Shown here one piece after another: positions 290 to 21,277 of a DNA stretch of 22,752 nt; the first letter of the stretch is position 1, and each line of letters begins with the position of its first letter. The notes beneath the pieces are model-generated. The model searched no databases. It was not told the DNA's origin and saw only the letters and a list, made by a program, of their open reading frames with translations. The translations under genes and the position numbers were made by a program. Source of the stretch: a virus; IMG/VR virus record IMGVR_UViG_3300027714_000134, positions 1-22,752 of that record, one strand, 5' to 3'.

Positions 290-461
290 GAAAATTATAC
301 CACACTTTTTTAAGTATTACTTGGTCGCCACTAATCAAAATTTTCTTAAACTCTCCTTCTGTAAGGTTTAAGAAATCATGTATTTCAATATCTTCTGTTG
401 AACTGTGCCACTCATCTACTTTATCGTCAAAAAACTCATTTAAAATATTATACTTTTTCAT
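276..461 (-). CDS. Small acidic hypothetical protein (61 aa)
   Basis: A 61-aa protein of unknown function. It is acidic in its first half and contains WHSSTEDIEIHDFLNLTEGEF. This loosely recalls a short helical pattern (Trp-His, then a 'heyLgmt-eey'-like stretch) common in small phage proteins, but I would not assign a family. Its ATG overlaps the polymerase stop codon in an ATGA arrangement, and its 3' end overlaps the thyX start. It therefore sits in a tightly coupled polymerase-to-thyX operon on the minus strand. There is no signal peptide or membrane segment. The tight overlaps on both sides support it being a real gene. Confidence 0.7.
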   Translation of the reverse strand: MKKYNILNEFFDDKVDEWHSSTEDIEIHDFLNLTEGEFKKILISGDQVILKKVWYNFHGNV

Positions 462-1633: not shown

Positions 1634-1772
1634 TTATATCTCTTGCCTCAGAGGCCAAAATTAGTTGTTTTAGAAATATTAAAGCATCTTTATAAGAAAT
1701 TTCCATATTATACAGATCCTCTGATACTAAATCTAATTGTTTAGCTAACAGTTCTGCTTTACGCTTTGCCAT
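1623..1772 (-). CDS. 49-aa ORF lying between two polymerase pieces
   Basis: A short frame beginning MAKRKAELLAKQLDL and ending EARDISGN, predicted mostly helical with a basic N-terminus. Its ATG overlaps the end of the exonuclease/thumb gene by 14 bases, and its stop lies 11 bases inside the polymerase-core gene. It fills the gap between those genes exactly, so it may be translated by coupling. It has no HNH, GIY-YIG or LAGLIDADG signature and is too small to be a homing endonuclease. It could supply part of the thumb in trans, be a separate small factor, or be a remnant of whatever split the polymerase gene. Function unknown. Confidence 0.5.
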   Translation of the reverse strand: MAKRKAELLAKQLDLVSEDLYNMEISYKDALIFLKQLILASEARDISGN

Positions 1773-2247
1773 TTCGGCTATCTAGTTCCATTTTAATTTG
1801 GTTTAGTAACAAGACCCTTGAGTCTATATTTATTGCGGGTTCTCCACCATCGGTTCTCATAGGAGGATATAATCCAAAACCATCCTCGTTAGTGAATAAT
1901 ACTTCAGCCATCTGCATATCTGATCCAATATTGGTATCTTCTCTAATCTCTTTGAATTCATACAAGTCAGCAGCTAAAGTTACGAGTAGTTCTGATAATT
2001 CTTCATCAATACGATCCACTTCGCTAATATCTACATCAACACCTTGATACTCAATCTTGGTGAATACTTCTTGGCCTTTAGATACTAAGTTCTCTAGCAG
2101 GTTTAGCTGACCGTTTGATTCAATGATTTCCTTGAAAATATAATATAAGTCTAAAGTACAAATAGTATCTAGAGCATTACCTTCTACACAATCTGTTAGG
2201 GAAATGTTAGCCCAATCAAATGTTTCCGGGTTTACAATTGTTAGCAT
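1759..2247 (-). CDS. PolA middle piece: end of 3'-5' exonuclease domain plus thumb
   Basis: This 162-aa protein continues, with no visible loss of sequence, from the C-terminus of the UDG-like/exonuclease gene. Residues 23-32 (GNALDTICTL) fit the Exo III motif (YxAxDxxxT): Asp27 and Thr31 are kept, but the usual Tyr is Gly23. Residues about 55-150 fit the PolA thumb: EYQGVDVDISEVDRID is the 'GV-x-vD' start, and GGEPAINIDSRVLL matches the 'G-pStd---L' segment before the polymerase core. It therefore cannot act alone and presumably pairs with its neighbours. It overlaps the upstream gene by 7 bases (ATGCTAA) and has its own GGAG ribosome site. An unnoticed sequencing error is the alternative, but the dedicated ribosome site argues against it. 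Confidence 0.8.
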   Translation of the reverse strand: MLTIVNPETFDWANISLTDCVEGNALDTICTLDLYYIFKEIIESNGQLNLLENLVSKGQEVFTKIEYQGVDVDISEVDRIDEELSELLVTLAADLYEFKEIREDTNIGSDMQMAEVLFTNEDGFGLYPPMRTDGGEPAINIDSRVLLLNQIKMELDSRNGKA

Positions 2248-3257
2248 CTTAAGTTCTCCAACCTTTCAGGAATATAAATCTTTACAAGGCTAATAAGCTT
2301 CTTAACCATATCTTCATTTACTAGGTGAGCCATTGCAGCAGTACACCTAACGTTCTCTACCTTAATACCCTCAGCCATCAGGAATTTCACATCAAATGAG
2401 GAGTTATGGAAGATCTTGACGTTATTAGGATTAGTCAACACTCGACTTACAAAATCATGGACTCCAGTAAGATCCTCTATGAATGGAGAATCCTTATGTT
2501 TCCAAGGAATAACAAATGTCCCCTTCTTGGTAGTAAAGGAAATAGTCTGAATGTAGTCGTTGTTGAAATCAAATCCTGTTGTCTCAATATCTACAGCTAC
2601 TTCTAAGTTAGTATAGCATAGCCAATCGTAATCTTCAAGCATTTCAATCTCTCCGATATAAGTATATTCTGAAACAAGTGCCTTTGCTCCTCCCAGATAT
2701 TTAGCTAAGATATTTCTTATATCAGCATCGAAGTAAAACTTTAGGCTAGGTTCAGCGACAACATGACCAGCATCAAGAGTAGGTATAACAGTGTACGTTT
2801 TTTCATCTAATTCAATTTGGAATTCAGTTCCACGTTTGGAGAAGATTCCACTCTTCTTGGTTACCATTTTCATAGCTAGGTTACCTAAGGTAATAATAAC
2901 TTTAGGGTTAGCGTCTTTAATAGTTTGTTCTATATACTTCCTACAAATATGAAAGTCAGCAGTTTCCATTGCCCTCTCGGTAATAGAGGGGCATTTTACA
3001 GCAGCAGCATATTCTATTTTAAGGTTAGGGTTATTATTATATCTACATAGAATTTCTTCAATATACTGCTTATCAATAAATCCAACTGGACTAATCTTAC
3101 CGAACTTAGACTTATTATAACTGCCTGTTACAAAGAGGATATCACATTCTCTTACATCTTGTGTTATACACTTCTCTCCCGGAGTTTTTAATATAGAGCA
3201 TCCATTACAAGGATTTTCTTCTTTGGGTTCGTTTTTAAATAGATCTTCTATATTCAT
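2241..3257 (-). CDS. UDG-like domain fused to first half of a DnaQ-like 3'-5' exonuclease (PolA N-terminal piece)
   Basis: A 338-aa protein. Residues 15-190 resemble a family-4 uracil-DNA glycosylase: Cys17, Cys20, Cys89 and Cys105 match the Fe-S ligand pattern, and TLGNLAMKMV is typical. The glycosylase active sites look changed: the GExPG motif is replaced by GSYNKSKFGKISPVGF, and the HPS loop by LDAGHV. Residues about 218-338 start a proofreading exonuclease: Exo I DIETTGFD (Asp223, Glu225) and Exo II HNSSFD (Asn285, Asp289). The protein stops before Exo III, which is in the next gene. The frame extends to 3323, but I chose the ATG at 3257: the longer version would overlap the divergent sigma gene. 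Its start has no Shine-Dalgarno. UDG-PolA fusions are known in some large phages; here the chain is broken. Confidence 0.85.
   Translation of the reverse strand: MNIEDLFKNEPKEENPCNGCSILKTPGEKCITQDVRECDILFVTGSYNKSKFGKISPVGFIDKQYIEEILCRYNNNPNLKIEYAAAVKCPSITERAMETADFHICRKYIEQTIKDANPKVIITLGNLAMKMVTKKSGIFSKRGTEFQIELDEKTYTVIPTLDAGHVVAEPSLKFYFDADIRNILAKYLGGAKALVSEYTYIGEIEMLEDYDWLCYTNLEVAVDIETTGFDFNNDYIQTISFTTKKGTFVIPWKHKDSPFIEDLTGVHDFVSRVLTNPNNVKIFHNSSFDVKFLMAEGIKVENVRCTAAMAHLVNEDMVKKLISLVKIYIPERLENLRC
2256..2259 (-). promoter_or_regulatory. Shine-Dalgarno (GGAG) for the PolA middle piece
   Basis: GGAG lies 8 bases before the ATG at 2247, inside the end of the UDG-like/exonuclease gene. This is good spacing for independent initiation. 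It decides the reading of this junction as a real gene boundary rather than a frameshift, because no slippery heptamer is seen at the overlap. Confidence 0.6.
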
Positions 3258-3259
3258 AG

Positions 3260-3265
3260 TATAAT
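3260..3265 (+). promoter_or_regulatory. TATAAT box 5 bases before the sigma-factor ATG
   Basis: TATAAT, then AGTAT, then ATG. If it acts as a -10 element, transcription would begin at or next to the start codon, giving a leaderless message; no Shine-Dalgarno is present. The 13-base gap to the divergent UDG-like gene also reads TATTATACTATG on the other strand, so the site may fire both ways. Confidence 0.5.
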
Positions 3266-3270
3266 AGTAT

Positions 3271-3612
3271 ATGGCGAAATATATCGACAACCACCGTTTC
3301 GAGGCTCTAATCTTAGAATACACTCAGGGGAATAAAAAAAACGAGGATGAGCTAATGGGCATGTTTTATATCCTAATCAGCAAGATCATAAGTGGGTTCA
3401 CCTTCAATGTAGATACTGAGGATGCGAAGCAAGACTGTATGCTACTGATTGTAAGGACTCTCAATACCTTCGATCCTGAAAGAGGAAGTGCCTTCAACTT
3501 CTTCACGACCTTAATTATTAATAGCCTAAAAAGATTATATACGAAAACAAAGCGGTATAATCAAAAAATAGATGATTATACCGCCCATGTTGTCTATAAA
3601 TCAGATACCTAA
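3271..3612 (+). CDS. gp55: gp55-like late sigma factor (short)
   Basis: A 113-aa protein resembling sigma-70 region 2 and, more specifically, T4 gp55, which directs host RNA polymerase to late promoters having only a TATAAATA box. The stretch around residues 35-92 (DTEDAKQDCMLLIVRTLNTF, then FNFFTTLIINSLKRL) follows the region 2 layout: an acidic helix, a short linker with 'FDP', then the helix that reads the -10 box. It is shorter than T4 gp55 (185 aa). It lacks the hydrophobic/acidic C-terminal tail that binds the sliding clamp in T4, so clamp dependence may differ. It is one of only two plus-strand genes, and its end overlaps the thioredoxin-like gene by 12 bases, tail to tail. An ECF-type sigma remnant is the alternative. 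Confidence 0.7.
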   Translation: MAKYIDNHRFEALILEYTQGNKKNEDELMGMFYILISKIISGFTFNVDTEDAKQDCMLLIVRTLNTFDPERGSAFNFFTTLIINSLKRLYTKTKRYNQKIDDYTAHVVYKSDT

Positions 3613-4300: not shown

Positions 4301-4846
4301 ATGAAAGATAACTACGACCTCAAAAATCTAAAGAAACCAAAAAAAATCAATGGTAAGCGTAAAGGAAACAAATACGAGAATGATTTATCCAAGTTACTCA
4401 ATAAACGCTTTAATACTACTGACTTTGCTAGAACACCGGGATCAGGAGCATTTGCTACTACCCACAAGCTCCCATCTCATTTAATGATATATGGTGATTT
4501 AATTACTCCATTAACCTTTAGGTTTGTTATAGAGGCTAAAAGAGGTTATTCAAGTTTAAATATATTAGATCTAATTAATAATACTAGCGTCCTACACGGA
4601 TTTATCAGCCAAAACCTAAAAGATTGTGCGAAATGTGACAAAGACTCTCTAGTGATCTTCAAGCAGGATAGGCGTAAAGCTATGGCTATCGTTACTCTAA
4701 GCGAGCCTATGAATATAGAACTCAAGTTAATACTTAAACAAAAAGACATCCCCTTCTTATCTTTTGGAGATGAAAGGAATGTCCTACTTTTATTAGATGA
4801 TATTCTTACTTTAGACGATTCATTCTTTTTTAGCCAAGCTCTCTAG
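4301..4846 (+). CDS. Putative PD-(D/E)XK nuclease, Holliday-junction-resolvase-like
   Basis: A 181-aa protein with a very basic start (residues 8-24). It then has NKYENDLSKLLNKRF, ARTPGSGAF, a YGDLI stretch and FVIEAKRGYSSL. The order Glu (helix), Arg-x-PGSG, Asp (GDLI), then Glu-x-Lys (EAK) fits the PD-(D/E)XK nuclease fold of the resolvase and VRR-type endonucleases. Such an enzyme could resolve branched DNA before packaging, the job of gp49 in T4, or act in recombination. It is on the plus strand among minus-strand genes, and its end overlaps the long virion gene by 27 bases, tail to tail. The fold is fairly likely; the exact substrate is inference. Confidence 0.65.
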   Translation: MKDNYDLKNLKKPKKINGKRKGNKYENDLSKLLNKRFNTTDFARTPGSGAFATTHKLPSHLMIYGDLITPLTFRFVIEAKRGYSSLNILDLINNTSVLHGFISQNLKDCAKCDKDSLVIFKQDRRKAMAIVTLSEPMNIELKLILKQKDIPFLSFGDERNVLLLLDDILTLDDSFFFSQAL

Positions 4847-7600
4847 TAACTTACTAATAACTTCGTTCTGTTTCTCAAATAGCTCTTTGATGCTCTCGCC
4901 CATCATGGAGCTTTCTTGTTGTTGAGCTTGGTTATAATAACTTTGGTCAGCTACATAGAGCCTATTAGCTTCTACCTGCATAGTTAGAGATTGAGTAGTA
5001 TCCGTAAGATTTTTAAAGTTTTTATTCTTGTAATAGAGTGACATGTAGTTAAGAGGCCTATTGGTGGCAGTAGGTCCTAGTCCAGGTCCTTTAAGATTAA
5101 TCTTATTATCCTTAGTAAACTCAAGAGAATAACCTCCAATAGTCGTACTTCCGGGTTTATATTGAATGCCCTCTCCAGAATCAATCATCTGACTAAGCTG
5201 ATTAATAGCATTATGTATGAGATCATTCTGACTTACTAAATAAACGTCATTGTTAGGTAAATCAGTTACTTGCATTAAAGTCTCTTCAGAACACCCACCA
5301 TTCATATGCATCATAAGACCTACTGAGTGTAACATCTTCTTTTGATGATCTCTCATGTCCTGATCAGTTTGAATTTCAAACTTGCCTTTGTTAGGCTGAA
5401 ACATATCATATTTCATCCTTTGTACAAGTAACGCTCCTGCAATCTCCACCATTTCTTTAGGCTTAAGTTCTTTAGAAGGATCGGTCTTGATTTGTCTTAA
5501 CTTATAACTAACAGAACTTTCAAAAATATCTCTATCAATGAAATCATCAATAAGATCCATAATGTAAGTTTTCTGTTCTTTCTCTAAGTTGATGCCGTCT
5601 TTATCAATAAACTTACCAAGACCTACTGAGAAGAGCTTTTCTACATCTGACATTCTCGTATAAACGTCCTGAGCTACTGATTTTATACTAGACTCATTTA
5701 ATGACGTTCCTGTGGCGTAGGACTGCGTGATACCTTCTATAGCCATCGCTTGTCGTTGATCCCTTCCTGCGCCAGTTCTGTGACCTAGGTAAGTAGATAA
5801 TCCATTTAGGGAGGTGTCGTATTTGAACCCGCCTAGGCTAATATTCTTCTCCTTAGGAGAGAATAGCATTTTAAGGCTAAAGTTCACAGAATCATAAGAA
5901 GAATCCATAAGTCCAAACATTTCAGAGGAATCCGATGCTGTGCCTGCTTTCTCATTGCCTACTCTACCTGTAGTTTGATTCAACTTAACGAATCTTTGTA
6001 TTTTATCAGGAGGAACACCTTGATTCATTAAAATAGTTTCTGCGAAGTTAGTAGGGTAATATTCTATCACATCAGCTTTAGAGCCAAGAAAAATGTCAGT
6101 TCCTACCTCAGATACCCCGATAGGTCTACGCATCATATTACTTTTGGAGTTAATTGTGGTAATAGCATGAAGCATTTTCTTAATCCATTCTTTAGCTTGA
6201 TCTGCTGACCATTGAATAGCAACTTGTCTATCAGCACTTAGAATGAATTCTTTTAATGATTCATCATCCATACCATCAACGTATCCGAATGCATCTCTAA
6301 GAGAATAGGCATGGTCTACGTTAGACATTTTATCTACGTCAGTAAGAGAATAGCGTACAATGTTATTAAGCCCCTCAATAATCTCCCCTCCTGAACTATT
6401 CATGATTTCAAGAAGAGTATTAGTTATACCCTCTCCTGCTGCCATATTAGTTTTAGAGTGAGACATTAGACTCATAAGACGAGTAATCTTTTCCATATCA
6501 GTTCCAAGTGTTTTAAACCTGTAGTTGATTTTGTCGGGTGAAAGTCTAGGAATTCCTTTAATTATATTATCATCTTTATACTTATCTGCGATCTCACCAT
6601 GAATCATGTCTACGATATCATAAAGCATAGGACTAGATGCTTGGGACATTACTGCTCCAGATATACCATCTTCACCTTTAAATACTATAAAAGAATTTTC
6701 TGGGGAGTCGCCTTCAATTACAGAAAAGTTCTCAGAAATAGTAAACACTGACTCTTCACTATCTAAATAACCAGAAGTTTTAGTTCTCTCAATAAGGTCC
6801 AAGTAGTTGGTGGCATAGAATAAGGCATCATCAGCAGGAATTGCAAAGTCTTCTTTTAGAGACTTAAAAGACCCCTGTACAACCATTCCTCTAATCTCTC
6901 TGAATCTAGTAGAAAGAGCCTCTGGAGTATCGTCACATATTTGAGAAGACATGTGCTTAAAGTCATATTCCTGTCCTCTACCTCTATCTTCTATCTTATC
7001 TTTGGATGACCACTGTTTATCAGAATAGTTCTTATGTTTATTCTTTAACCTGTGAAAGAAGCTTTCAAGGTACTCTACTGACTGACATATTATATTCTTA
7101 ACTTCGCCAATAGCCTTTTCTGATGCTTCAATCTCTTGCTCTTCCGGAGTTAACATCTCCTCCGGGATTCCTTCATCTACTTGAGGCTCATCTCCAGATA
7201 CCTCTTTATTATTCATCTCAGCATCAATCTCAGGAACAAGTTTAGCTACAAATCTTCCCCAAGGAGATCTTAAATCATCAATACTTCCTACAGGTTGACC
7301 ATTCTCGTCAACTACTTTAATACCGTGTGACCATGCGTGACCTAAACCTTTAACCACTACGGACTTGTTTATAGCCACTTTAGCAGATGATCTCTTCATC
7401 TCAAGGCCTTGCACATTTCCTACAGGCATCCACTCATCAGTTACGGTATTAATAAAGCCCAATGCAGTAGCTTCAGCAGCTTGTAATGCAGCATACTTCT
7501 CAGCATCAGCTACAATAGCTTCTTCATTATCCTCAAGCACTAATTGTCTCTTTTTAAGTTTACTATAACTATCTAAGAGATCTGTGTAAAAATTGTTCAT
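4820..7600 (-). CDS. Large hypothetical protein downstream of the tail tube, probably virion or tail associated (926 aa)
   Basis: I do not recognise a family. From the ATG at 7600 (MNNFYTDLLDSYSKLKKRQL) it runs 926 aa. The frame is open to 7630, but the extra residues would be coded inside the terminator hairpin, and the 7600 ATG follows a TATAAT box. Visible parts are a Glu-rich stretch at about residues 125-165, a long mixed helical middle, and a Gln-rich end closing in a helical tail. There is no signal peptide, transmembrane segment, zinc site or nuclease motif. It is separated from the tail tube gene by a terminator and has its own promoter-like box, so it is likely a late gene made independently of the tail operon. 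Candidates are a tail or baseplate component or an internal ejected protein; the sequence does not decide. Confidence 0.85.
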   Translation of the reverse strand: MNNFYTDLLDSYSKLKKRQLVLEDNEEAIVADAEKYAALQAAEATALGFINTVTDEWMPVGNVQGLEMKRSSAKVAINKSVVVKGLGHAWSHGIKVVDENGQPVGSIDDLRSPWGRFVAKLVPEIDAEMNNKEVSGDEPQVDEGIPEEMLTPEEQEIEASEKAIGEVKNIICQSVEYLESFFHRLKNKHKNYSDKQWSSKDKIEDRGRGQEYDFKHMSSQICDDTPEALSTRFREIRGMVVQGSFKSLKEDFAIPADDALFYATNYLDLIERTKTSGYLDSEESVFTISENFSVIEGDSPENSFIVFKGEDGISGAVMSQASSPMLYDIVDMIHGEIADKYKDDNIIKGIPRLSPDKINYRFKTLGTDMEKITRLMSLMSHSKTNMAAGEGITNTLLEIMNSSGGEIIEGLNNIVRYSLTDVDKMSNVDHAYSLRDAFGYVDGMDDESLKEFILSADRQVAIQWSADQAKEWIKKMLHAITTINSKSNMMRRPIGVSEVGTDIFLGSKADVIEYYPTNFAETILMNQGVPPDKIQRFVKLNQTTGRVGNEKAGTASDSSEMFGLMDSSYDSVNFSLKMLFSPKEKNISLGGFKYDTSLNGLSTYLGHRTGAGRDQRQAMAIEGITQSYATGTSLNESSIKSVAQDVYTRMSDVEKLFSVGLGKFIDKDGINLEKEQKTYIMDLIDDFIDRDIFESSVSYKLRQIKTDPSKELKPKEMVEIAGALLVQRMKYDMFQPNKGKFEIQTDQDMRDHQKKMLHSVGLMMHMNGGCSEETLMQVTDLPNNDVYLVSQNDLIHNAINQLSQMIDSGEGIQYKPGSTTIGGYSLEFTKDNKINLKGPGLGPTATNRPLNYMSLYYKNKNFKNLTDTTQSLTMQVEANRLYVADQSYYNQAQQQESSMMGESIKELFEKQNEVISKLLESLAKKE

Positions 7601-7606
7601 TATATT

Positions 7607-7612
7607 ATTATA
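7607..7612 (-). promoter_or_regulatory. TATAAT box 6 bases before the 926-aa gene
   Basis: Minus strand reads CTATAATAATATAATG, with the T-run of the terminator directly before it. No Shine-Dalgarno is present. The layout matches the boxes before the sigma and nuclease genes. Confidence 0.55.
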
Positions 7613-7613
7613 G

Positions 7614-7655
7614 AAAAAAACCCAACCCAACAGTTTATTGGATTGGGTTTTTTTT
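7614..7655. terminator. Bidirectional rho-independent terminator after the tail tube gene
   Basis: Arms at 7619-7630 and 7638-7649 pair over 12 positions with one mismatch, around a 7-base loop. An A-run lies on one side and a T-run on the other, so it can end transcripts in both directions. In practice it would stop the minus-strand sheath-tube message. Confidence 0.85.
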
Positions 7656-7674: not shown

Positions 7675-8229
7675 CTAAACTATAGATTTTTGTACAACAA
7701 AATCATAGGAGAATGTACAGGTAATAGTATGGAACTCATTTTGAGCATAGTCAAAATCAGAGGGTTTCCATGAGGTCATAAAAGCTCCCACATAACGAGA
7801 CTCCCCTACAGGATCTCTAATTTCGTTCAATTGAATGACATTAAGCAATCCTTTATACTCGTCTACCCCTGAAAATACTCCTGTATTAGGATCGTATGAA
7901 CTTTTCATAGTTTCATAAAGCTTTGCTAAAACATCATCATTTTTAAGGTTATCAAATACAACAGTAAGTTCATCAGGAGTAGCTTTACCTGCATAAAATG
8001 TTTTATCATTTACACGATCAACTTGGATTTTATCCACTTTGAATCCTGAACCAGATACTTTCTTAGCAGCAAGATTAAAGGTATCTAATGCCGCGCTTTG
8101 AAGTGCAGGTAACTTAAATTCGACTTCCCACTCATAAGATCTCCTTGCATCAGCCTTTGTGGAGACAAGGGGCATTGCTGTCCCTTGGGACGTATCTCTA
8201 GTATAATCAGACTTGTAAAAATTTGCCAT
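7675..8229 (-). CDS. gp19: Tail tube protein, T4 gp19-like
   Basis: A 184-aa protein forming the inner tube of the contractile tail through which DNA passes. It has the tube-protein features: RRSYEWEVEFKLPAL near the start, FYAGKATPDELTVVFDNLK in the middle, and a C-terminal pair of strands around ITCTFSYDFVV. T4 gp19 is 163 aa, so the size is normal. It follows the sheath gene directly: the AGGAG ribosome site and the upstream stop lie within 16 bases of its ATG. A strong terminator follows. Call rests on family pattern plus position after the sheath. Confidence 0.85.
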   Translation of the reverse strand: MANFYKSDYTRDTSQGTAMPLVSTKADARRSYEWEVEFKLPALQSAALDTFNLAAKKVSGSGFKVDKIQVDRVNDKTFYAGKATPDELTVVFDNLKNDDVLAKLYETMKSSYDPNTGVFSGVDEYKGLLNVIQLNEIRDPVGESRYVGAFMTSWKPSDFDYAQNEFHTITCTFSYDFVVQKSIV

Positions 8230-8234
8230 AGTTT

Positions 8235-8240
8235 ATTATG
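8235..8240 (-). promoter_or_regulatory. Possible -10-like box (CATAAT) before the tail tube gene
   Basis: CATAATAAACTATG has the same 5-base spacing as the stronger boxes in this window, with one mismatch to TATAAT. A normal Shine-Dalgarno (AGGAG) also lies upstream, so coupling to the sheath gene explains expression without it. Confidence 0.25.
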
Positions 8241-10299
8241 CTCCTAAATCAGCACCTTGCGCTGTTAAGTTTAATTCAAAGACCAACATTTCAGCAGCCT
8301 TTGTGGGTTTAACTTCAACTCTACACCAGAGTTCGTTTCTGTCTTGTCTTACAGGGGTGTTTGTAGTTTCATCACAAACAACTCTGAATTCTCTAATTCC
8401 CCTACGCATTTTAATATCTTGTAGAGCAGGGTTTAGAACATCTTGAATTTGACCCCAAAGAATAGGATCGTTAGGTTCAAATACATAAGCAAGCGTGGAT
8501 GCTTTAACTAGTTTCTGTAAGTGAATCATTAATCTACGAACGTTAATTCTGTCCGTAGCAGAAGGTAATCTTTGAGCAGTTCTTTGTCCGAAGATAGTAA
8601 TACCGTTCTGGATGAAGTTTACTACAGGGTTAATAACGTTTCCACCACTGTAAAGGGCATCTCGGTCACCTAAGTTAAGTCTAACTTCAGTAGCAGTAGG
8701 CTTAGTAAGTCTACCTCTACGGAAACCAGCAGGAGCAAACCATTGCTCTGCAACACTATCGGTATAAACCATTTGGCGTAAACCATAAATGCTTGGATCA
8801 TACCATCTATCTACCCCGTCGAAAGTGCTAAACACTTTTACCCAAGGCCAGAAAATAGCAGCATAAGAACTTGTAATAGAAGCTGTTCTAGAAGTCTTTT
8901 GACCGTTTGACCAGTCAATAGCATCTTGAGCATTACCTACGCCATAAGGAGGCGCGACAACAGCTAAGAAATCTTGTGTAGCTTCAGATAAAGTAATAAG
9001 AGCATTTTGTACAGACTGATCAGTTACACCCGGAACCACTACTAATGATACATCCACAACAGGATCATCTAGGGCTTGCATCCCAGTTTTAGGTTCTGAA
9101 GCAGCATTACCTATAAGGGCAGCAGCTTTATCAGCTTGTAGGGCAGGAACACCGTCCGTTCCAGCAGCTAAGTTATAAGTTCCTTCGATAAACTTAACGA
9201 ACCTTAGTCCATCAGCATCGGCAACAGCAGCACCTCCTAGCGAACCAAGAAGAGATGTAGTACCTATAGAGCCTAGAGTTGTAGTGAACCCTAGTAGTTT
9301 AGTAGCAGAAATATCGCTAAGGTTCTTAGCAAGGTTTCCTTTAATGATTTGGGAGACAAGATTAGTCGCTCCAGTATTAATAACATCTTCTACGAAGATC
9401 CCTGAACCGACCAGAGAAACTTTAAAGGATTCAGTTACGAAACCATTATCGTTTACCTGTAATAGAACATTTTGTCCACCGAGAGCTACTACTTCTACAG
9501 AGTTACCTTTAGTAGAACCATCAGACTTAATACCAGCATTATAACCAGTTCCAGGGTAGATTGATTCAGATAAGTAACCTAAACCACTTGCTCCAGTTGA
9601 GTTTACTTCTGTTCCTGATGCAACTCCAGCAGTTATTAAAGATCCAGCAGCACCAGTAATATCAACTAACTTCAATGCACTTAAATCTGAAGAGTAACCA
9701 GAGTCACTAAAAGCTGATACATCAAGAGTTGCACCTGATCCAGCGTAAGTTCCTACAATATAACCGTTAGTCGTAGTTCCATCGGGATAAAATACACCAA
9801 CTTGATCGGAATCTAAAGCTCCTCCAACAACTGATCTAATAGCTTGTGCTTGAGTATCTGCTGTGCCAGAAGGGCACGCATAAGATCTAGGTGAAGCAAA
9901 TTGGGATACACCCGCATTATCATAGACTTGTACTTTAAGGTAAAGGTCTGTGGTAACTCCGAATCCACTAGCATCAAACTGCATAGCAGGACAACCACCA
10001 ACCTTAACGATTGCAGAAGCATCTACAGCAGCAGTTTCACCAACCGCTCTAATGAAATAGATTTGGTTAGTAACTTCTAGTAATTCTAGAGCAGCTTCTA
10101 TACCTTGACCATAGATAGCTTCATCTGGCTCGCCAAAGTTAAGAATAAGGTTTTCGGCACTTGTAATAAGGGTAATCTCATTAGTAGGACCTTTTTTGGC
10201 GAAACCAACAATACCTACAATAGACCCATTGAGCGTAGGTGAATAATTAGAGTTATCAGTCTCAAATGAGTAAACTCCGGGACTTAGGAAGGATGGCAT
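8236..10299 (-). CDS. gp18: Contractile tail sheath protein, T4 gp18-like
   Basis: A 687-aa protein (T4 gp18 is 659) that forms the contracting sheath. The start SFLSPGVYSFETDNS with VGIVGFAKKGP, and the end with PAGFRRGRL, FIQNGITIFGQRT, NVRRLMIHLQKLV and ELWCRVEVKPTKAAEMLVF, are the conserved inner sheath domains. The middle (residues about 110-370) is the variable outer region. It is Gly/Ser/Ala rich, as in other sheaths whose surface domains differ between phages. It begins 2 bases after the 58-aa gene with no Shine-Dalgarno, so translation is probably coupled. It ends just before the tail tube gene. Confidence 0.95.
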   Translation of the reverse strand: MPSFLSPGVYSFETDNSNYSPTLNGSIVGIVGFAKKGPTNEITLITSAENLILNFGEPDEAIYGQGIEAALELLEVTNQIYFIRAVGETAAVDASAIVKVGGCPAMQFDASGFGVTTDLYLKVQVYDNAGVSQFASPRSYACPSGTADTQAQAIRSVVGGALDSDQVGVFYPDGTTTNGYIVGTYAGSGATLDVSAFSDSGYSSDLSALKLVDITGAAGSLITAGVASGTEVNSTGASGLGYLSESIYPGTGYNAGIKSDGSTKGNSVEVVALGGQNVLLQVNDNGFVTESFKVSLVGSGIFVEDVINTGATNLVSQIIKGNLAKNLSDISATKLLGFTTTLGSIGTTSLLGSLGGAAVADADGLRFVKFIEGTYNLAAGTDGVPALQADKAAALIGNAASEPKTGMQALDDPVVDVSLVVVPGVTDQSVQNALITLSEATQDFLAVVAPPYGVGNAQDAIDWSNGQKTSRTASITSSYAAIFWPWVKVFSTFDGVDRWYDPSIYGLRQMVYTDSVAEQWFAPAGFRRGRLTKPTATEVRLNLGDRDALYSGGNVINPVVNFIQNGITIFGQRTAQRLPSATDRINVRRLMIHLQKLVKASTLAYVFEPNDPILWGQIQDVLNPALQDIKMRRGIREFRVVCDETTNTPVRQDRNELWCRVEVKPTKAAEMLVFELNLTAQGADLGA

Positions 10300-10530: not shown

Positions 10531-13500
10531 TTATGTTTGATTAGTTAAAGATCCTGCGTAATATGACGTAGGAACATTAGGTACAGGTAGTGTAATGCTT
10601 CCCTTGTGCTTTAATAGAGCTACAAATGGAGCCATATAAGATGCCCATGTACGCGATAATTCTAAGGAAGATGAAGCTTCTGCTCCTGCTATTTGATTAA
10701 ATAACTTTAAAGCACTAATATAATTCACAGGTCTTTCCCATCCATCGGTTATAGGTGTTTGCCCTACTCCAATGAGACTAGAATTTCCAACAATACCATC
10801 CTCTAAGAAATCTTCTGTCATAAGCTTGTAATACCATTCTACGAATTTAATATCTCCGGTCATTATATAACCAGCATATAAGAAAGGTCCACACCTCATA
10901 TCTGCTGCCCACCAACCGTCAACAAAACCTGATCTGAAATCCCATCCTACAGGCATAAGAGGGGGAGGATTCTTATAACCATCTAAATTATCACTTTGAC
11001 CAATAAAAGCTTGAGCATACTCATTACCTATATCATCAGCATACTTCCAGATAAAGTATGGATATAAAACCATACTTCTATAGAAGATACCTTTAGCTTC
11101 AGGACTTCCAAAACCATAGAAAGAGTTTACTACAGCAGTTAAACCGTTCATGAATAAGGATATAGTTCCCATATTCGCAGGTTCAAATCCAGTTTGTCCC
11201 TCATGCTCTAAAGGATCATCATTTGAAGACAGAGTAAAATCTGGCATATCCCCAGATGCATTTACTATACTAGTTTGACCAAAATTACCAGAATTCATAT
11301 TTTGATCCCTGCCGCCACCACTACCGAAGTTACTTACATAAGCATCGAAAAAATCTTTAAATACGTCTGCCCATTCAAATAAATCTGCTCTTCTATCTGT
11401 AGAAGGATCAGTTATTCTATAACCTTCACTAATAGACCATATAGGGTGTCCTATTTGTCTATTAAATGAAGGGAATTTATCTCCTTTCTGTCTACCCCAT
11501 TGATATGTAGTAGAGTGATTATCATCAATATATTGCTTCATTCTCTTAAAGCTAAAGTTATATGACATATAATCATCAGGTCCATTTAGTACTTTACCCG
11601 GCTTAATAATATCAGTGTAGTGAGTATTTTTTACAATATATTTACTATGAACATGTTCTGAGTGAGCAGCTTCTTGGCGTATTATATGTTTAGCAATTCC
11701 TAAGTTACAAGAGTATATTAAAGGCTTAAATGTTTGTAAAAATCTTACGGTATGCATTCCTTCATAAGGGTTAAATGTAATATCTCCTGATTTCCAAAAG
11801 TTTCTTACTAAATCTATATCTCTCTCATGATCTCCTGCTTGTGAGTAAACCGGACCATACCCGTACATACTAGCTGAAGCGTCTGTAGGTAAATTCCATA
11901 CTCTGTCTTCAGGACTCATTTCTCTTCCACTAATACCCGATTTCTGTGCCCCTGGAGCATTTTGAATACACCACCAAGGGAACCAGTAATTCATTTGAGC
12001 TACACCAATAACTAATGACCAAGGTGAGAATAATTCAGTCCCTGTACTATCAGCATTAGCGTAAGCCAAAGCACTAGCATTTACAATATCCCCCTGTAGA
12101 CTTGTTATAGAACTATCATGACGTTGGGTTATGTATGTCATTTGAAGTTGATGTGTTCTCCATAACCATCTATTATTCTGCCATCCCTGAGCGCACTGAA
12201 TTAGTTTACCTCCAGACGCTCCGGGTTTAATATGATCATAAGGATGGTAATATCCCTGAGCCATATTTAAGTTACCTCTAGAATCTGTATCATTATTCCA
12301 CTCTCTGTGCCATCCGTAACCAGTATCTATTGTACCGCTCACAGCATTATCTAATACGTGGGTATATGTGGTGGAACATCTATAATCATTAGTTTCAAGA
12401 CCTTCATAAGCCTCCCCTACAGGATGACTTTTCTTTAGTTTGAAGTCACTCGTAATTTCAGGGTGATATTCTGCTTGTGCGCCATAACCCGGAAGCTCGT
12501 AATAAGTATTAACACCACTTATAGTTTGACCATAAGTATCCATTTCTAGTAGACTAGTAGCTTCAGCTAAACCAGCAGCATTATTAGGACCGATTACATA
12601 GTGCCTAATAATTCTTTGTCTGTTAGCTAGTAATTGCTCGAAAGTATCTCCACTATTATTTACAGGACGGATAATATAACCATTATCGGAATCCATACTA
12701 GGGTCTTCAAACTCAGCATATAACTTATAACCAGCAGGTAATCCGGTAAGTTGCATACTCTTAAACCATACTTCACCAGAGATCTCTGTATGATAGTCTA
12801 CACTACCATCTTTAACGCCCTTACTTGAATCTTTATTTATATCAAAGTTATCATTCGCAATAAGCATCCAAAGCTCAATACCAGAGGTATCAGATCTTCT
12901 AGTAATGAAGGATTGAACATTACCTATAGAATAATCAATACTTGTAGATGCTTTAGTACTGTCAGTAATAAGGGAGTGGAAATGCTCTTCATTAATAAAT
13001 ACACCATTTCTAATAACTTCCTTAGAAGTGTTAGTTAATTGGGAAGTCATATTAGATGCTTTACCCACCACATCAACTTCTAAAGTTACTCCACTAAGCT
13101 CTAAAGTACTAAATTGACCTGCACTAGGGGCAACAACAGAACCAATATTACTAAGAGTAGCAGTACCTCCCCCGCTAACAGGCCCAACTACTTGAACTAC
13201 GTCAATCTTATTATCAGCGGTCCATGCTACGGGGAATACATCACAGGCTGAACCGTCCATATAAAAGGTAGGCTCAGTACTAGAATGTTCAATAGGTACA
13301 GTTACGGATACAAGAGGATTGGCAATACTAGAAGGATCAATATACCCTACCTCTGTAGTATTAGATGCAATTGATTCAAATGTAATTCCGCTGGATGATG
13401 TGGTTGCACCATTAAGACTTGAAAGTGTAACATCGTAAGTATTGCCTTGTAAGGTTGTTGTAATAGGTATGCTACAAGATACTTGTGTGTCTGAAAGAAT

Positions 13501-15375
13501 ATCAGTATCGTAATGAACTCCATTAATTACAATTCTAGTCCTATTAGTTAACGTCCCGTAACCTACCATATAACCACTAAGGTCTGCACCAGATACAGTT
13601 ACAGCAGCTACTTCATTTGTAGTAACTACATTTACAGAGGATACGGTAGGTTCTGGTGATATCGTATAGCCTCCGGATAATGTGTCAGTTTGATTACCGT
13701 TATCGGTAGAACTCACTACGATATCAATAGTTAAACCTGCTAAATTTTCTGATACAATAGGAGTTTTAATAGTCATCCCTGATGCAACGGGTGATATAGA
13801 AACATTGGTCATTAAAGCACCTCCAATTAAAGCAGACGTTTGACTAATATTATTATAACCAGCACCAGTAATTTCGATTGTATTCCCATAACCGTAAGGG
13901 CCATAAGCAGGAGTTACTGAATCAATGACTAATGTTTGAGGTGTAACAGAATCCAATCCAGGAAGTGTAATAGCACCAAACTCCCCTGATGATCCGTTAA
14001 GACCAGAAAGGATTACATCCACCTCAACATTACTAAAAACATTACTCATTTCTAAATAACCTGATACTGAGTTATTAGTTACAATATCAGTAACCATAGG
14101 AAGTCCATTAGCATATAAAACGACTTTACCTGAATCATAACTATAATAAGGTTGTAAGTAATTATTAAAGTTATTTCCTACAGAATGAAATTCTAATCCG
14201 CTATTAGATAGACTATTTCCCTCAACTATAATAGCAGATGTGGAAACCATATCAGGCACAGGAGAAATTCTATAAACCTTACTTAAATTAATAGTAGCAT
14301 CACTTAAGGCATATCCTGGCTTTACTAATTGAATACTAATAAGATTACCGTTATCTGATTCATCAAAAGCAGCAAAAGTAGCTACTATCTTAGTACCTTC
14401 ATAGCCAGTAAATACACTAGTAGCAGATTTACCATCTAAAGTAATTAAGGTATCGTTAAATAAACCTTCACCTAAAATCTCAATCGAAACCTCTTGACTA
14501 TAAGGACCATAATCAGGAGTAATAGAATTAGCTTCAAATACTAATTCAGGTTCTGCTACAGCAACAACAGTATCACTAGGAAACTCACCAGCAGCAGGGT
14601 TAGTTGTAGCTGTAGTAAAGTCAGAAGGTTTATCTATAGGACCATTAATAATATTATATAACTGAGTCGTAAATAGTTGTATCTTACTGTTAGCAGTTAA
14701 AAGGTACTCTGGGTAAGGTACATAAGTCTCTACTGTAATATTAAACGTTCTTCTAATAACTCTATCCTCACCATCACCTGTAGATAGTTCTGAAGTATTA
14801 GTTTGTCCCTCTAAGAATGCCTTATTATTCTTACTTAGAGAAGTACTTATATTAATATGAGGATTAAACTCTCTACGAATTTGTTCCGTAAGTTGATCCA
14901 AATCAGAAATGTATTTAGCCCAGATATTAACTTCATAGGATATATTAATAGGTCTAGGTGCTAGGCTAACAATTCTATAAGCTATACCCGTAATAGGATT
15001 TCTATATTTAGTATGAATAAGCACACCCTTATAACGAACTCTGTTTTCATCCGTGTCTGAGCCAGTATTACTAATTGTAGCTATAGGTAAAACAATATTA
15101 TCATCTTGATTAAGTTTAGCTATAGCTCTCTCAGGATTAGCGTGAAAAGTTTTTACTTCAATTATTTCTTGCTCAGATGAAATGTAGTTCAAGCGACCAA
15201 ACCTTAATATAAGACTTTCGAGAACTTTACGGTAAATCATACTTACATGATTAGCCTTTTTAGAAGACTCGTCAATAAAGTTAGTCAGGATAGTTTTAGT
15301 ATCCCTTCCGTAATCACTTAAAGATGAAAGGTAAATCTCCCCTTCATCAATTGTTGTGTAGTTCTCGATTCCCAT
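10531..15375 (-). CDS. Giant fusion: gp15-like tail sheath stabiliser, TIG domains and large unknown C-terminal region (1614 aa)
   Basis: Residues about 25-245 resemble T4 gp15, which joins the tail to the head and caps the sheath; the best block is ISYEVNIWAKYISDLDQLTE then FNP at 145-172. T4 gp15 ends at about 270 residues, but this protein continues. Ig-like IPT/TIG domains follow: one at about 284-370 (NSITPDYGPYSQ), one at about 485-573 (DSVTPAYGPYGYG), and a weaker one to about 668. Residues 760-1614 form a large Trp/Tyr/His-rich region (GYGWHREWNND, WFPWWCIQNAPG, GDHERDIDLVRNFW). It recalls helical-toroid glycan-active enzymes such as the YetA/rhamnogalacturonan-lyase type, but I cannot confirm that. 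The gene follows the Lys-rich gene by 2 bases, with AAAGG as ribosome site. Likely a neck protein carrying a long surface appendage. Confidence 0.75.
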   Translation of the reverse strand: MGIENYTTIDEGEIYLSSLSDYGRDTKTILTNFIDESSKKANHVSMIYRKVLESLILRFGRLNYISSEQEIIEVKTFHANPERAIAKLNQDDNIVLPIATISNTGSDTDENRVRYKGVLIHTKYRNPITGIAYRIVSLAPRPINISYEVNIWAKYISDLDQLTEQIRREFNPHINISTSLSKNNKAFLEGQTNTSELSTGDGEDRVIRRTFNITVETYVPYPEYLLTANSKIQLFTTQLYNIINGPIDKPSDFTTATTNPAAGEFPSDTVVAVAEPELVFEANSITPDYGPYSQEVSIEILGEGLFNDTLITLDGKSATSVFTGYEGTKIVATFAAFDESDNGNLISIQLVKPGYALSDATINLSKVYRISPVPDMVSTSAIIVEGNSLSNSGLEFHSVGNNFNNYLQPYYSYDSGKVVLYANGLPMVTDIVTNNSVSGYLEMSNVFSNVEVDVILSGLNGSSGEFGAITLPGLDSVTPQTLVIDSVTPAYGPYGYGNTIEITGAGYNNISQTSALIGGALMTNVSISPVASGMTIKTPIVSENLAGLTIDIVVSSTDNGNQTDTLSGGYTISPEPTVSSVNVVTTNEVAAVTVSGADLSGYMVGYGTLTNRTRIVINGVHYDTDILSDTQVSCSIPITTTLQGNTYDVTLSSLNGATTSSSGITFESIASNTTEVGYIDPSSIANPLVSVTVPIEHSSTEPTFYMDGSACDVFPVAWTADNKIDVVQVVGPVSGGGTATLSNIGSVVAPSAGQFSTLELSGVTLEVDVVGKASNMTSQLTNTSKEVIRNGVFINEEHFHSLITDSTKASTSIDYSIGNVQSFITRRSDTSGIELWMLIANDNFDINKDSSKGVKDGSVDYHTEISGEVWFKSMQLTGLPAGYKLYAEFEDPSMDSDNGYIIRPVNNSGDTFEQLLANRQRIIRHYVIGPNNAAGLAEATSLLEMDTYGQTISGVNTYYELPGYGAQAEYHPEITSDFKLKKSHPVGEAYEGLETNDYRCSTTYTHVLDNAVSGTIDTGYGWHREWNNDTDSRGNLNMAQGYYHPYDHIKPGASGGKLIQCAQGWQNNRWLWRTHQLQMTYITQRHDSSITSLQGDIVNASALAYANADSTGTELFSPWSLVIGVAQMNYWFPWWCIQNAPGAQKSGISGREMSPEDRVWNLPTDASASMYGYGPVYSQAGDHERDIDLVRNFWKSGDITFNPYEGMHTVRFLQTFKPLIYSCNLGIAKHIIRQEAAHSEHVHSKYIVKNTHYTDIIKPGKVLNGPDDYMSYNFSFKRMKQYIDDNHSTTYQWGRQKGDKFPSFNRQIGHPIWSISEGYRITDPSTDRRADLFEWADVFKDFFDAYVSNFGSGGGRDQNMNSGNFGQTSIVNASGDMPDFTLSSNDDPLEHEGQTGFEPANMGTISLFMNGLTAVVNSFYGFGSPEAKGIFYRSMVLYPYFIWKYADDIGNEYAQAFIGQSDNLDGYKNPPPLMPVGWDFRSGFVDGWWAADMRCGPFLYAGYIMTGDIKFVEWYYKLMTEDFLEDGIVGNSSLIGVGQTPITDGWERPVNYISALKLFNQIAGAEASSSLELSRTWASYMAPFVALLKHKGSITLPVPNVPTSYYAGSLTNQT
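14592..14623 (-). repeat. 32-base exact repeat, copy 1 (giant gp15-like gene)
   Basis: Identical to 18662-18693 over 32 bases, same strand and same reading frame. Both encode DFTTATTNPA; here it is residues 252-261, exactly where the gp15-like part ends and the added domains begin. Confidence 0.95.
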
Positions 15376-15377
15376 GC

Positions 15378-15878
15378 TTATGCCTTTTTAACTCTAGGTC
15401 TTTTTACTACTTTCTTTTTACCTGCTTTCTTTTTACCTGCTTTCTTTTTAACTACTGGTTTCACTTCAGGCGTGGATAGAAGTGGGTTTGGTTCTCCTGC
15501 TTCTCTTCTTTTGGCAGCAGCATCTTTAATTGCCTTAATATCAAGTTCATCATCATCTGTCCTCTTAATGAGATTACTTGGGTGAGATGTGTCATCATCA
15601 TTACTTCTATCAATGTGACCTATTTCACCAGTTTTATTACTATGAGATCTCATCTTAGCCACTAAATCTTTAATATGGTCTGGAATAAGTGCTTGTGATT
15701 CCTGTCCCCTTAGTCCAGGGTTTTGAGCAAGTCTTCTTTCTTTGGCTCTTTCTTCTTCAGAAGCAGAACCAGCTTTTGCTGAAGAGCCTCTTCTAGCAAA
15801 AGGAGATTTTAACTCGTTTCCAGTGATAGGGCTATTAGCTTCTAGAATTTGTTGGCAAATTTCAATTTCGTCTTTCAT
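15378..15878 (-). CDS. Hypothetical protein with Lys-rich, histone-like tail (166 aa)
   Basis: An unrecognised protein between the gp14-like and gp15-like neck genes. The first 30 residues are acidic and probably folded (DEIEICQQILEAN). The rest is charged and probably disordered. The last 30 residues include KKKAGKKKAGKKKVV, a repeat like the tails of histone H1-type or other DNA-binding proteins. The start overlaps the gp14-like stop by one base (TAATG) with AAGGAAG upstream. A protein that touches DNA near the neck, or one packaged with the genome, is possible; this is inference from composition and place only. Confidence 0.75.
   Translation of the reverse strand: MKDEIEICQQILEANSPITGNELKSPFARRGSSAKAGSASEEERAKERRLAQNPGLRGQESQALIPDHIKDLVAKMRSHSNKTGEIGHIDRSNDDDTSHPSNLIKRTDDDELDIKAIKDAAAKRREAGEPNPLLSTPEVKPVVKKKAGKKKAGKKKVVKRPRVKKA
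15411..15455 (+). repeat. Three 15-base tandem units coding for KKAGK repeats
   Basis: Two identical 15-base units (tttctttttacctgc) and a third that differs in its last bases. They code for the repeated Lys/Gly tail of the minus-strand protein, and the unit length keeps the frame. Confidence 0.8.
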
Positions 15879-16444
15879 TAGTATCTTCCTTCAAAGTCAG
15901 TTAATTCGTCTGACTGGTTTAGTAATGGGGTATCAACAGTACTCTCAGAATCTCTAAGGAGTTTGGCTGTTGCGATTAGGTGATAAACACCATAGGACTC
16001 GAATGAATCCTCTTGTACTTCAATAATTTCATACTTTTGGTTTTGAAAGTATGGTTTAATAATATCTCCGGGAATAAGAGTTCTACCGACGATTGATTCA
16101 ATATAACTCTTATTAAAAGTAAACAGTTGATCGTTAGTAAGCTCAATACCGAACTGTGATAGATGCTCTTCCAATACTGATGGCTCGTAATGGCCCATAA
16201 CAGTTATAGGTTCTCTGGAGATAGTTTTCTGTCTATCCTCCATGTAAACTTCATCGTAGTTACCTTCACTTTGATAGTACTTATAAAGGTACATCTTAGA
16301 TCCAGATAGCCTAATAGCCTCAGCATCAATGCTATTAAATAGATTGATATCAGGGTTAGATGGGTCAAATAGATTAAGACCACTCTCCTCAACTTCTTCA
16401 GGGAGCGGTATAATCTGGTGACTAACTTTGAAGTTCTTTTTCAT
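15878..16444 (-). CDS. gp14: Neck protein, T4 gp14-like
   Basis: A 188-aa protein. In T4, gp13 and gp14 close the filled head before the tail is attached. Features matching the gp14 family are DAEAIRLSGSKMYLYKYY, VYMEDRQ, a segment HLSQFGIELTNDQLFTFNK, then RTLIPGDIIKPYFQNQKYEI and the following SYGVYHLIATAKLL. It is shorter than T4 gp14 (256 aa), mainly at the C-terminus. Its position between a gp13-like and a gp15-like gene matches the T4 order. No Shine-Dalgarno is seen; a TATAGA box lies 6 bases before the ATG. Confidence 0.8.
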   Translation of the reverse strand: MKKNFKVSHQIIPLPEEVEESGLNLFDPSNPDINLFNSIDAEAIRLSGSKMYLYKYYQSEGNYDEVYMEDRQKTISREPITVMGHYEPSVLEEHLSQFGIELTNDQLFTFNKSYIESIVGRTLIPGDIIKPYFQNQKYEIIEVQEDSFESYGVYHLIATAKLLRDSESTVDTPLLNQSDELTDFEGRY

Positions 16445-16966: not shown

Positions 16967-17827
16967 TTAGAATGTTGAAAACGGAACGGGCTCTTCCAAA
17001 TCTTCAATTAGTTCTCTCTTAAGTTCATCCATTGCCATCTTACCTTCCTCTCGGAGTTCCTTACCGTCTAGTGAAGCTCCTCCACCGGGACTAGGTAAAC
17101 TAGCATACTTGCCTCTTACAAGGCCAAGGGTAATCATTGCTTTAGCTGTAGCGTATCTCTGAATCCAGTTCCTATAAGCAGGATGGATTGTATCAGATGA
17201 TATACCTCTATATATAACAATCACGGGGTCTGGGGTAGCGGAAGGGAACGGACTTAATTGTAAATATTTGTTATCAATTACATCCCAAGTACCTTCTTGG
17301 CTTAGAATCTTTCGAATCTGTTCAATGTGAGTTTGCAACATATAAAACTCCCCTACGCTGAAATCAGAGAATAGGAAGTTGTCTTGGAAGTATTTAATAA
17401 AGAAGTCGAACTCAAGCGTATTAGACTGAGCTTGAATGGTTAAAAGACTCTTCTTATAAACAACGTATTCCAAGTTGTTCATTACGTACTGTGGAAGTTC
17501 GTAAGTGTTTTGTCCAGCAGATGCATCAAATACTAGGAATTGATTTGTCCACATTGGAGCGTGGTAAGACATGAAGGTAACAGCTTCATCAATCGCTAAC
17601 TTAATTTGAAAGTTAGTAAGCTCTACTCTAACTGTAGGATATCCTAATGTACCTAAGATGTATGATCTAATAGTCTCTTCGAACTTACTAAAATCTACTT
17701 CATCAGTAAGGTAGTTTTCACCAACACCATCAGCAATATTTCTACTTGGATTTCCATCAGTAGCTAACTTTCCTCCGTATTCGCTACCGGAATCACCGTA
17801 GCTCGTCATATTAGGTTTACTTGGCAT
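16967..17827 (-). CDS. gp13: Neck protein, T4 gp13-like head completion protein
   Basis: A 286-aa protein (T4 gp13 is 309). It binds the portal after packaging to seal the head. The first 40 residues are Gly/Ser rich. Then come FEETIRSYILGTLGYPTVRV and LTNFQIKLAIDEAVTFMSYH, which form the conserved N-terminal helices. Near the end are WIQRYATAKAMITLG and GKYASLPSPGGGASLDGKEL, both typical of this family in T4-related phages. The start overlaps the upstream small gene by 11 bases, with AAAGAAGAA as a weak ribosome site. The following genes are also neck components. Confidence 0.85.
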   Translation of the reverse strand: MPSKPNMTSYGDSGSEYGGKLATDGNPSRNIADGVGENYLTDEVDFSKFEETIRSYILGTLGYPTVRVELTNFQIKLAIDEAVTFMSYHAPMWTNQFLVFDASAGQNTYELPQYVMNNLEYVVYKKSLLTIQAQSNTLEFDFFIKYFQDNFLFSDFSVGEFYMLQTHIEQIRKILSQEGTWDVIDNKYLQLSPFPSATPDPVIVIYRGISSDTIHPAYRNWIQRYATAKAMITLGLVRGKYASLPSPGGGASLDGKELREEGKMAMDELKRELIEDLEEPVPFSTF

Positions 17828-20332: not shown

Positions 20333-21277
20333 TCAGCCTCCCATGTCTCGAAGGCGCGCCATTAGCCTTGCCGCTGCAAGGGGATTGGCTCGCGCCCATC
20401 GTTTCCTGTGAGCATTTTGCTTTAAAGGGTTATTTCTATTAGAGGTACTATCTTGAGCAGCATTGAAATTGGCCTCTGCTCTACCCGTAGTAGCTAATTT
20501 TTCACCACCACGGGATCTATCGTGTCTGTTGGGTTTACTTCTGGTTCTAATTTGAACATTTTGATCTGTATCATTCCCATCAACATATCCTTTGTTATCA
20601 GGGTTCCAATCACCAGACTTTAATTTTCTGTTCTTACCTTGTACACGTAGCTTTTCAAAATTAAACACCTCTTGATCTTCAAAAATATTATCAAACTTCT
20701 TTTTAAGTAAGTTAAGAAGTAATGCTTCTTCTTCAATCTTCTTAGAAGTATCAACTACGATCTTCTGGATAACAGTAGACTCAGTAAGAGAAGGATAAGC
20801 ACCTTTAGTTGAAGGGTCAGCTACAAGGTCAAACGTAACTAAATTAAAGTCTTCGTTTACTTGCTTCCTTCCTTCATCAATCTCAGATAGTGTTCCCATT
20901 CCTCTTGAAGAGATACCGACTGCTACTCCACCTTTAATAAGTTGTTGGGCTACTTGACCAGCAGGAGTATTAAGTAGAACAGCCTCACCAATAACCTCGT
21001 TACCTTTCATTTTAAGTCCAGTTATCTTATGTGAAACATTACTTAATTTTACTGAATCATACTCGGGATGATCAAGCTCGCCTAGTAAACGTTGCCCGTT
21101 AATAGACTCTTGTAGTTTAGCAACCTCGCGCTCAAGTAAAGATTTAGGATAAATACGCTTGTTGTTATTTTCCTCGTCAGCATGTTGAAACTTGCCGCTA
21201 ATCTTCATAAGACCATCTGATTTTGATTCAGATAGAATTTTAAGGTTTTGAATAATGAATGTGTCTGTTAGTCTCAT
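20333..21277 (-). CDS. gp21: Prohead protease, T4 gp21-like, with C-terminal extension
   Basis: A 314-aa serine protease that matures the prohead by cutting scaffold and capsid protein. The catalytic domain is residues 20-170: NNNKRIYPKSLLERE, GELDHPEYDSVKLSNVSH with His70, GGVAVGISSRGMGTL with Ser124, and FDLVADPST with the likely acidic residue. T4 gp21 is 212 aa. Here about 100 extra residues follow (after 205), basic and Asn/Arg rich, ending KRWARANPLAAARLMARLRD. The tail could be a core-binding or self-removed segment. The start is ATG; the upstream gene stops 12 bases before and no clear Shine-Dalgarno is seen. Confidence 0.92.
   Translation of the reverse strand: MRLTDTFIIQNLKILSESKSDGLMKISGKFQHADEENNNKRIYPKSLLEREVAKLQESINGQRLLGELDHPEYDSVKLSNVSHKITGLKMKGNEVIGEAVLLNTPAGQVAQQLIKGGVAVGISSRGMGTLSEIDEGRKQVNEDFNLVTFDLVADPSTKGAYPSLTESTVIQKIVVDTSKKIEEEALLLNLLKKKFDNIFEDQEVFNFEKLRVQGKNRKLKSGDWNPDNKGYVDGNDTDQNVQIRTRSKPNRHDRSRGGEKLATTGRAEANFNAAQDSTSNRNNPLKQNAHRKRWARANPLAAARLMARLRDMGG

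Follow-up and report, generated by a model that had tools for sequence, protein, structure and literature searches.

Studies of how contractile phages recognize their hosts and cut capsules have dealt almost entirely with the baseplate and the tail fibers. Appendages at the neck or collar are already known as well. In T4, the tail terminator gp15 is a hexamer at the head-tail joint that binds the last sheath ring, and fibritin contacts gp15 (PMC3004832); in XM1, the collar spike gp40 binds the tail terminator (PMC10457771). Neck-passage proteins of the 936 lactococcal siphophages carry carbohydrate-binding or beta-helix modules, and one of these modules bound host cells (PMC6669499). Here we describe a gene in which the tail terminator itself is continuous with an Ig-like stalk and a C-terminal module of no recognized family. 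The gene lies in a stretch of 22,752 nt (referred to as the window), a 22.7 kb fragment of an uncultured T4-like virus of bacteria (IMG/VR record IMGVR_UViG_3300027714_000134).

The arm that this gene would encode resembles the T4 fibritin (wac) collar and whiskers and XM1 gp40 in being an appendage docked on the terminator ring, but it differs from them in that they are separate, non-covalently bound proteins with structural or fiber-retaining roles. Similarly, the 936 neck passage structure shares with our reading of this locus neck-mounted arms whose end modules vary between close relatives, but it is a separate collar protein at the tail-capsid connector of siphophages, has a coiled-coil stalk, and is not fused to the terminator. 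(A BppU-like, collar-forming N-terminal domain of the 936 neck passage type is absent from the window protein, whose N-terminal domain is gp15.) The preliminary description of this DNA had called neck-mounted polysaccharide recognition unusual; unusual it is, but not unprecedented, because lactococcal siphophages already have neck-mounted carbohydrate-binding modules (PMC6669499). What is new is the covalent anchor on the tail terminator, its recurrence, its use of both termini, and the very large size of the modules; in the literature that we searched, we found no description of large tail-terminator fusions.

The fused gene occupies positions 10531..15375 on the minus strand, with its ATG at 15375 and its stop codon ending at 10531, and specifies a protein of 1614 amino acids (177 kDa) in a single frame of 1614 codons without an internal stop. 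A Shine-Dalgarno-like AAAAGG lies upstream of the ATG. The other two minus-strand frames of the same DNA contain 126 and 250 stops, the antisense frames contain 101-181, and the probability that a frame this long would be open by chance at this composition is ~10^-51, which rules out a chance open reading frame. A contig from another metagenome (L002) matches the window over ~9.5 kb, the only differences being a single mismatch and one short difference in length, and the two fusion proteins are identical across the shared part of the gene. Because this independent contig matches it, the fusion in the window is neither an assembly slip nor the product of a missed stop. The same architecture in a related phage, represented by two contigs from two further metagenomes (L013 and L014) that are identical to each other over the fusion gene, also rules out these explanations. 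The fusion protein of that phage has 1591 amino acids, and its gene order is as in the window: capsid, gp13, gp14, a small basic ORF, the fusion, sheath, and tube. Thus, the fusion that the preliminary description reported at 10531-15375 is real and its positions are correct, with the strand being minus, and the same fusion exists in a related phage, as that description had proposed to check.

Residues 1-245 (14641..15375, minus strand) are a complete T4 gp15-type tail terminator. In particular, Pfam T4-gp15_tss (PF16724) matches residues 79-239 with an E-value of 1.4e-10 and 41.2 bits, against a curated cut-off of 25 (the L013 protein scores 42.3 bits), PHROG 227 (tail sheath stabilizer) matches the N-terminal part with an E-value of 9e-9, and a profile search of the PDB with this part gave T4 gp15 as the best sequence match (E 3e-6). 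In a model predicted from a 50-sequence alignment, residues 30-235 mostly have pLDDT values of 70-90, and the top PDB match of this model in Foldseek is T4 gp15 (4huh; E 4e-8, probability 1.0), with a moderate target-normalized TM-score of 0.52-0.58. T4 gp15 therefore resembles residues 1-245 in domain, predicted fold, gene order, and length, but it ends there, at 272 amino acids, whereas the window protein has about 1370 further residues. Plain gp15 relatives likewise end a few residues past a conserved YxPxPxF...TSTGKIEEF strand, and it is from this point that the window and L013 chains run on; the arm is therefore an addition to a complete terminator, and the end of the gp15-like part, previously put at residue ~250, moves to residue ~245.

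The location of the gene is that of gp15, between neck genes and the genes for tail sheath and tail tube. On one side are a head-tail adaptor at the gp13 position (16967..17827, minus strand; PHROG 211, E 9.5e-19) and a neck or virion structural protein at the gp14 position (15878..16444, minus strand; PHROG 11591, E 1e-4), which is 75% identical in L013 and occupies this position in fused and plain relatives alike. On the other side, the next gene after the fusion encodes the tail sheath protein gp18 (8236..10299, minus strand; PHROG 23, E 5e-74), followed by that for the tail tube protein gp19 (7675..8229, minus strand; PHROG 4542, E 7e-15). The order gp13-gp14-gp15-gp18-gp19 is common to fused and plain relatives. 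Judging from the gp15 family and this gene order, the gp15 part of the window protein would also form a hexamer at the neck. (Between the gp14-like gene and the fusion lies a small ORF, 15378..15878 on the minus strand, with the Lys/Arg-rich end KKKAGKKKAGKKK; a small ORF is found at the same place in L013, and the window ORF has no Pfam match.)

A linker predicted to be disordered (residues 246-278; 14542..14640, minus strand) starts where plain gp15 relatives stop. In the 50-sequence model, pLDDT is below 50 at residues 237-293 and disorder is predicted at 237-278, such that the natural end of gp15 is followed by ~35 disordered residues before the first Ig-like domain. The stalk that follows (13381..14541, minus strand) consists of four Ig-like domains at about residues 279-365, 370-470, 480-570, and 578-665. 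Consistent with the earlier report of Ig-like TIG domains after gp15, Pfam TIG (PF01833) matches up to three stretches above its cut-off of 20.9 bits (24.4-34.7 bits, best E 1.8e-8), and the model has four beta-sandwich domains with pLDDT values of about 50-73. Self-comparison of the stalk revealed that domain 3 repeats domain 1 and domain 4 repeats domain 2 (z 8.4 and 6.8), and the stalk is therefore a duplicated TIG-plus-Ig pair. Foldseek searches with the predicted stalk returned plexin IPT domains and the Bacteroides Ig-like surface glycan-binding protein SGBP-B (6e57; E 2e-7), matches that point to a stalk and not to a ligand. SGBP-B is like the window protein in having a tandem Ig-like stalk, which in SGBP-B presents a distal glycan-binding end; unlike it, SGBP-B is a bacterial surface protein, and the likeness is limited to a generic Ig-like stalk that is uninformative on the phage module.

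The remainder of the protein is a module of ~920 residues (the 850 residues first estimated was too small a figure). Its first part (residues ~666-999; 12379..13380, minus strand) is well conserved with L013 and probably beta-rich, the latter judged from secondary structure of very low confidence. Its second part (residues ~1000-1614; 10534..12378, minus strand) appears helix-rich from secondary structure of the same very low confidence, and is Trp-rich, with a composition of 3.4% W, 5.9% Y, and 2.8% H that bears out the Trp/Tyr/His enrichment noted earlier. The preliminary description called this region unknown, and we found no relatives of the module in Pfam, PHROGs, NCBIfam, the PDB, phage records (tblastn), or genome contigs, and among viral contigs the only matches, by protein, alignment, and DNA-motif scans, were in L002 and the L013/L014 phage. 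Whatever threshold we applied, no profile of a carbohydrate-active or lectin family matched the C-terminal module. The one alpha/alpha-toroid family that we examined by name, the PcRGLX lyases, gave no match, and PcRGLX_3rd was not found.

Identity between the window and L013 proteins is ~56% in the gp15 part, ~26-43% per 50-residue bin in the stalk, and 46-49% in the C-terminal module, with 60-70% in several 50-residue bins of the first part of the module and up to 69% at residues 700-950. Within the module, R, P, W, G, and C are the most highly conserved residues, there are conserved patches of W, R, D, and H, and the frame is kept across indels. By these comparisons, the module is a sizeable, conserved orphan. 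AlphaFold2, run on residues 690-1614 with a two-sequence alignment, gave a mean pLDDT of 27 and, at this very low confidence, strands at ~880-930 followed by about a dozen helices. This predicted order, beta and then helix, resembles that of carbohydrate enzymes composed of a beta-sandwich and an (alpha/alpha) toroid, a resemblance we treat as a lead only.

Extended gp15 proteins are also present among viral structure models searched with Foldseek, and a six-frame search placed gp15 in frames of 459 amino acids in Campylobacter phage CPt10 and 453 amino acids in Vibrio phage V09 (KVP40 type). Cultured phages thus do have gp15 proteins that are modestly extended, whereas additions of about 350-1700 residues were found only in uncultured phages. 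Like the window protein, the CPt10 and V09 proteins carry a C-terminal addition to gp15, there of about 200-230 amino acids; unlike it, their additions are much smaller, have other sequences, and are without a large terminal module. (Note that the V09 gp15 ends in short repeats. In addition, CPt10 has a 538-aa ORF at L117:47986-49602, annotated as 'possible tail sheath protein', between its capsid and sheath genes; the deposited annotation gives this ORF three weak Big_2 Ig-like matches.)

A wider scan with a gp15 profile, comprising the best 80 of 269 confirmed candidates together with loci found earlier, yielded 66 distinct gp15 domains. Most of these (49) are plain; 6 have short N-terminal additions (about 135-160 aa), 7 have long N-terminal additions (from 346 to more than 1700 aa, in some cases cut off by the contig end), and 4 have C-terminal additions. 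One domain counted as plain, that of L011, is cut short by the contig end and may have an extension, as does that of its near twin L012. Long N-terminal additions are found in L048, L058, L060, L072/L073, L081, L085/L089, and L116, and C-terminal ones in the window and L013, in L091 (688 aa), and in L012 (about 300 aa). Several of the long N-terminal additions (L058:2425-6609, L116:664-6609, L072:1-6609, L081:4462-6609, and L048:675-2666) contain arrays of ~300-residue units, with as many as four or more in one protein, together with fn3-like domains; the units have weak right-handed beta-helix matches (best E 1.5e-4), and their profile found no match in the PDB. The C-terminal addition in L091 (L091:6610-8694) is an orphan, and its homology to the window module is unsupported, with a BLAST E-value of 0.2 at best and an hhalign probability of 0.3%.

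A gp15 tree groups the window with L013 in a single clade. To explain the C-terminal additions, it takes 3 changes, each of them forced by well-supported branches; for the long N-terminal additions, it takes 4, of which 2 are forced. Overall, the tree requires several independent gains or losses of gp15 additions; some branches are long, which leaves exact placements unsure. Wherever the contig shows them, the neighbors of gp15 are the same neck and tail genes. (The repetitive beta-like tail on gp15 at L012:5060-5966 resembles a separate repetitive ORF after gp15 at L006:9719-10576, and the two are possibly fused and unfused forms of one accessory.)

We read the gp15 tail terminator as a repeatedly used chassis for six neck-mounted arms. 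For the window protein, we put the chances at about even that it is a working gp15 terminator with an added arm at the neck whose terminal module contacts the host surface or matrix. As in T4, six copies of gp15 would cap the contractile tail immediately beneath the head. Each copy would bear a flexible linker, a four-Ig rod, and the ~920-residue module, extending sideways from the neck; the added mass would be about 145 kDa per copy and nearly 0.9 MDa for the whole virion. By analogy with fibritin, the XM1 collar spike, and the 936 neck-passage modules, the module would most likely make early contact with the host surface or the surrounding matrix, probably with polysaccharide, and such contact might keep the particle in place or orient it ahead of baseplate engagement. 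Contact with the host surface or a glycan is the likeliest function that we infer; the module may also cleave polysaccharide. A broader proposal, which we advance tentatively, is that in a large group of uncultured T4-like phages the terminator ring is a modular mount, with either end of gp15 repeatedly acquiring and losing large modules for binding or catalysis, such that six arms differ between close relatives, and that the arm in the window ends in a new surface-active, perhaps polysaccharide-cleaving, family.

The main rival to host contact is a structural role, in which the arm would be an integral collar or whisker of the neck, serving to stiffen the head-tail joint or to retain the long tail fibers without touching the host; we consider this explanation somewhat unlikely. 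Loops of T4 fibritin contact gp15 and bind tail fibers (PMC3004832), large collars wrap the necks of Milano and 7-7-1, Ig-like rods are common as structural parts, and the module contains no recognized binding or enzyme family, all of which fit a collar. Nevertheless, a fixed scaffold would be expected in all close relatives, most of which have a plain gp15, and the additions that do occur differ in sequence and terminus; a Trp-rich module of 920 residues is also far larger than a collar needs. A collar thus accounts for the Ig rod, but not for close relatives that lack any addition or have an unrelated one, and different large modules at either end of gp15 are what would be expected of a swappable host-range device, less so of a fixed scaffold part. 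One point that counts against our reading of a projecting, host-contacting arm concerns the site of attachment. The C-terminus of the pyocin terminator inserts into the sheath. That of the XM1 terminator also reaches into the sheath (PMC10457771), so an arm leaving gp15 there could disturb sheath contacts, or be structural.

The module could instead be a divergent glycoside hydrolase or polysaccharide lyase, with a beta-sandwich and an (alpha/alpha)6 toroid, that degrades the capsule or matrix of the host. Such an enzyme would be the catalytic version of host contact, the confidences that we assign to the two overlap, and we regard it in its own right as unlikely. The predicted order of strands and helices and the conserved W, R, D, and H patches favor it, as does, as a lead only, a YxxTGDxKFxEWxYKLM-like helix-pair stretch in the window that we take to resemble stretches of alpha/alpha-toroid enzymes. 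Against it, the module matches no CAZyme profile, PcRGLX_3rd included, and the AlphaFold2 model, at a mean pLDDT of 27, is too poor to give a fold. Enzymatic activity should not be claimed before a fold or an assay is available for the module. Alternatively, the protein might be cleaved after gp15 or within the linker, and the C-terminal module either set free or incorporated at another site, such as the baseplate. The disordered stretch at ~237-278 could be a cleavage site, and an ORF occupies the prohead-protease position (20333-21277; L013 homologue 73%). Cleavage is nonetheless very improbable, given that the fusion persists in a phage whose gp15 is only 56% identical and that other gp15 additions sit at the N-terminus.

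The arm in the window, together with the other large modules attached to gp15 in relatives, suggests that tools to touch or cut the host surface can be borne by the neck as well as by the tail tip. If large, variable modules are recurrently mounted on the terminator, then annotation of host range misses a site, and gp15, usually regarded as an unvarying structural component, would be a marker of host adaptation. The C-terminal orphan module is amenable to expression and testing.

PAAR proteins are normally found at the tip of the tail spike. In six of the contigs, a PAAR-like ORF lies directly downstream of gp15 (L048:2666-2932, L091:8700-8966, L071:6609-6953, L081:6612-7427, L043:6609-7514, and L086:6603-7415); most of these ORFs match Pfam PF05488 (up to E 1.7e-7), and three have a CARDB-like C-terminal part. 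No such ORF is present next to gp15 in the window or in L013.

The window lineage is far from cultured phages; the first-listed match of its capsid protein, that of Rhodothermus phage RM378, is 31% identical. After the tail tube gene, the window contains a 936-aa ORF (4820-7630, minus strand) that has no convincing family match, is 49% identical in L013, and is probably a virion or portal-region protein. A fragment at positions 2-289 (minus strand) resembles the flavin-dependent thymidylate synthase ThyX, as judged from a motif read by eye. Motifs also read by eye indicate that a family A DNA polymerase is seemingly split over three adjacent ORFs (458-3323, minus strand), namely a polymerase part, a middle piece, and an exonuclease part with a uracil-DNA-glycosylase-like N-terminus; in L014, the exonuclease part and the middle piece are likewise in separate ORFs.
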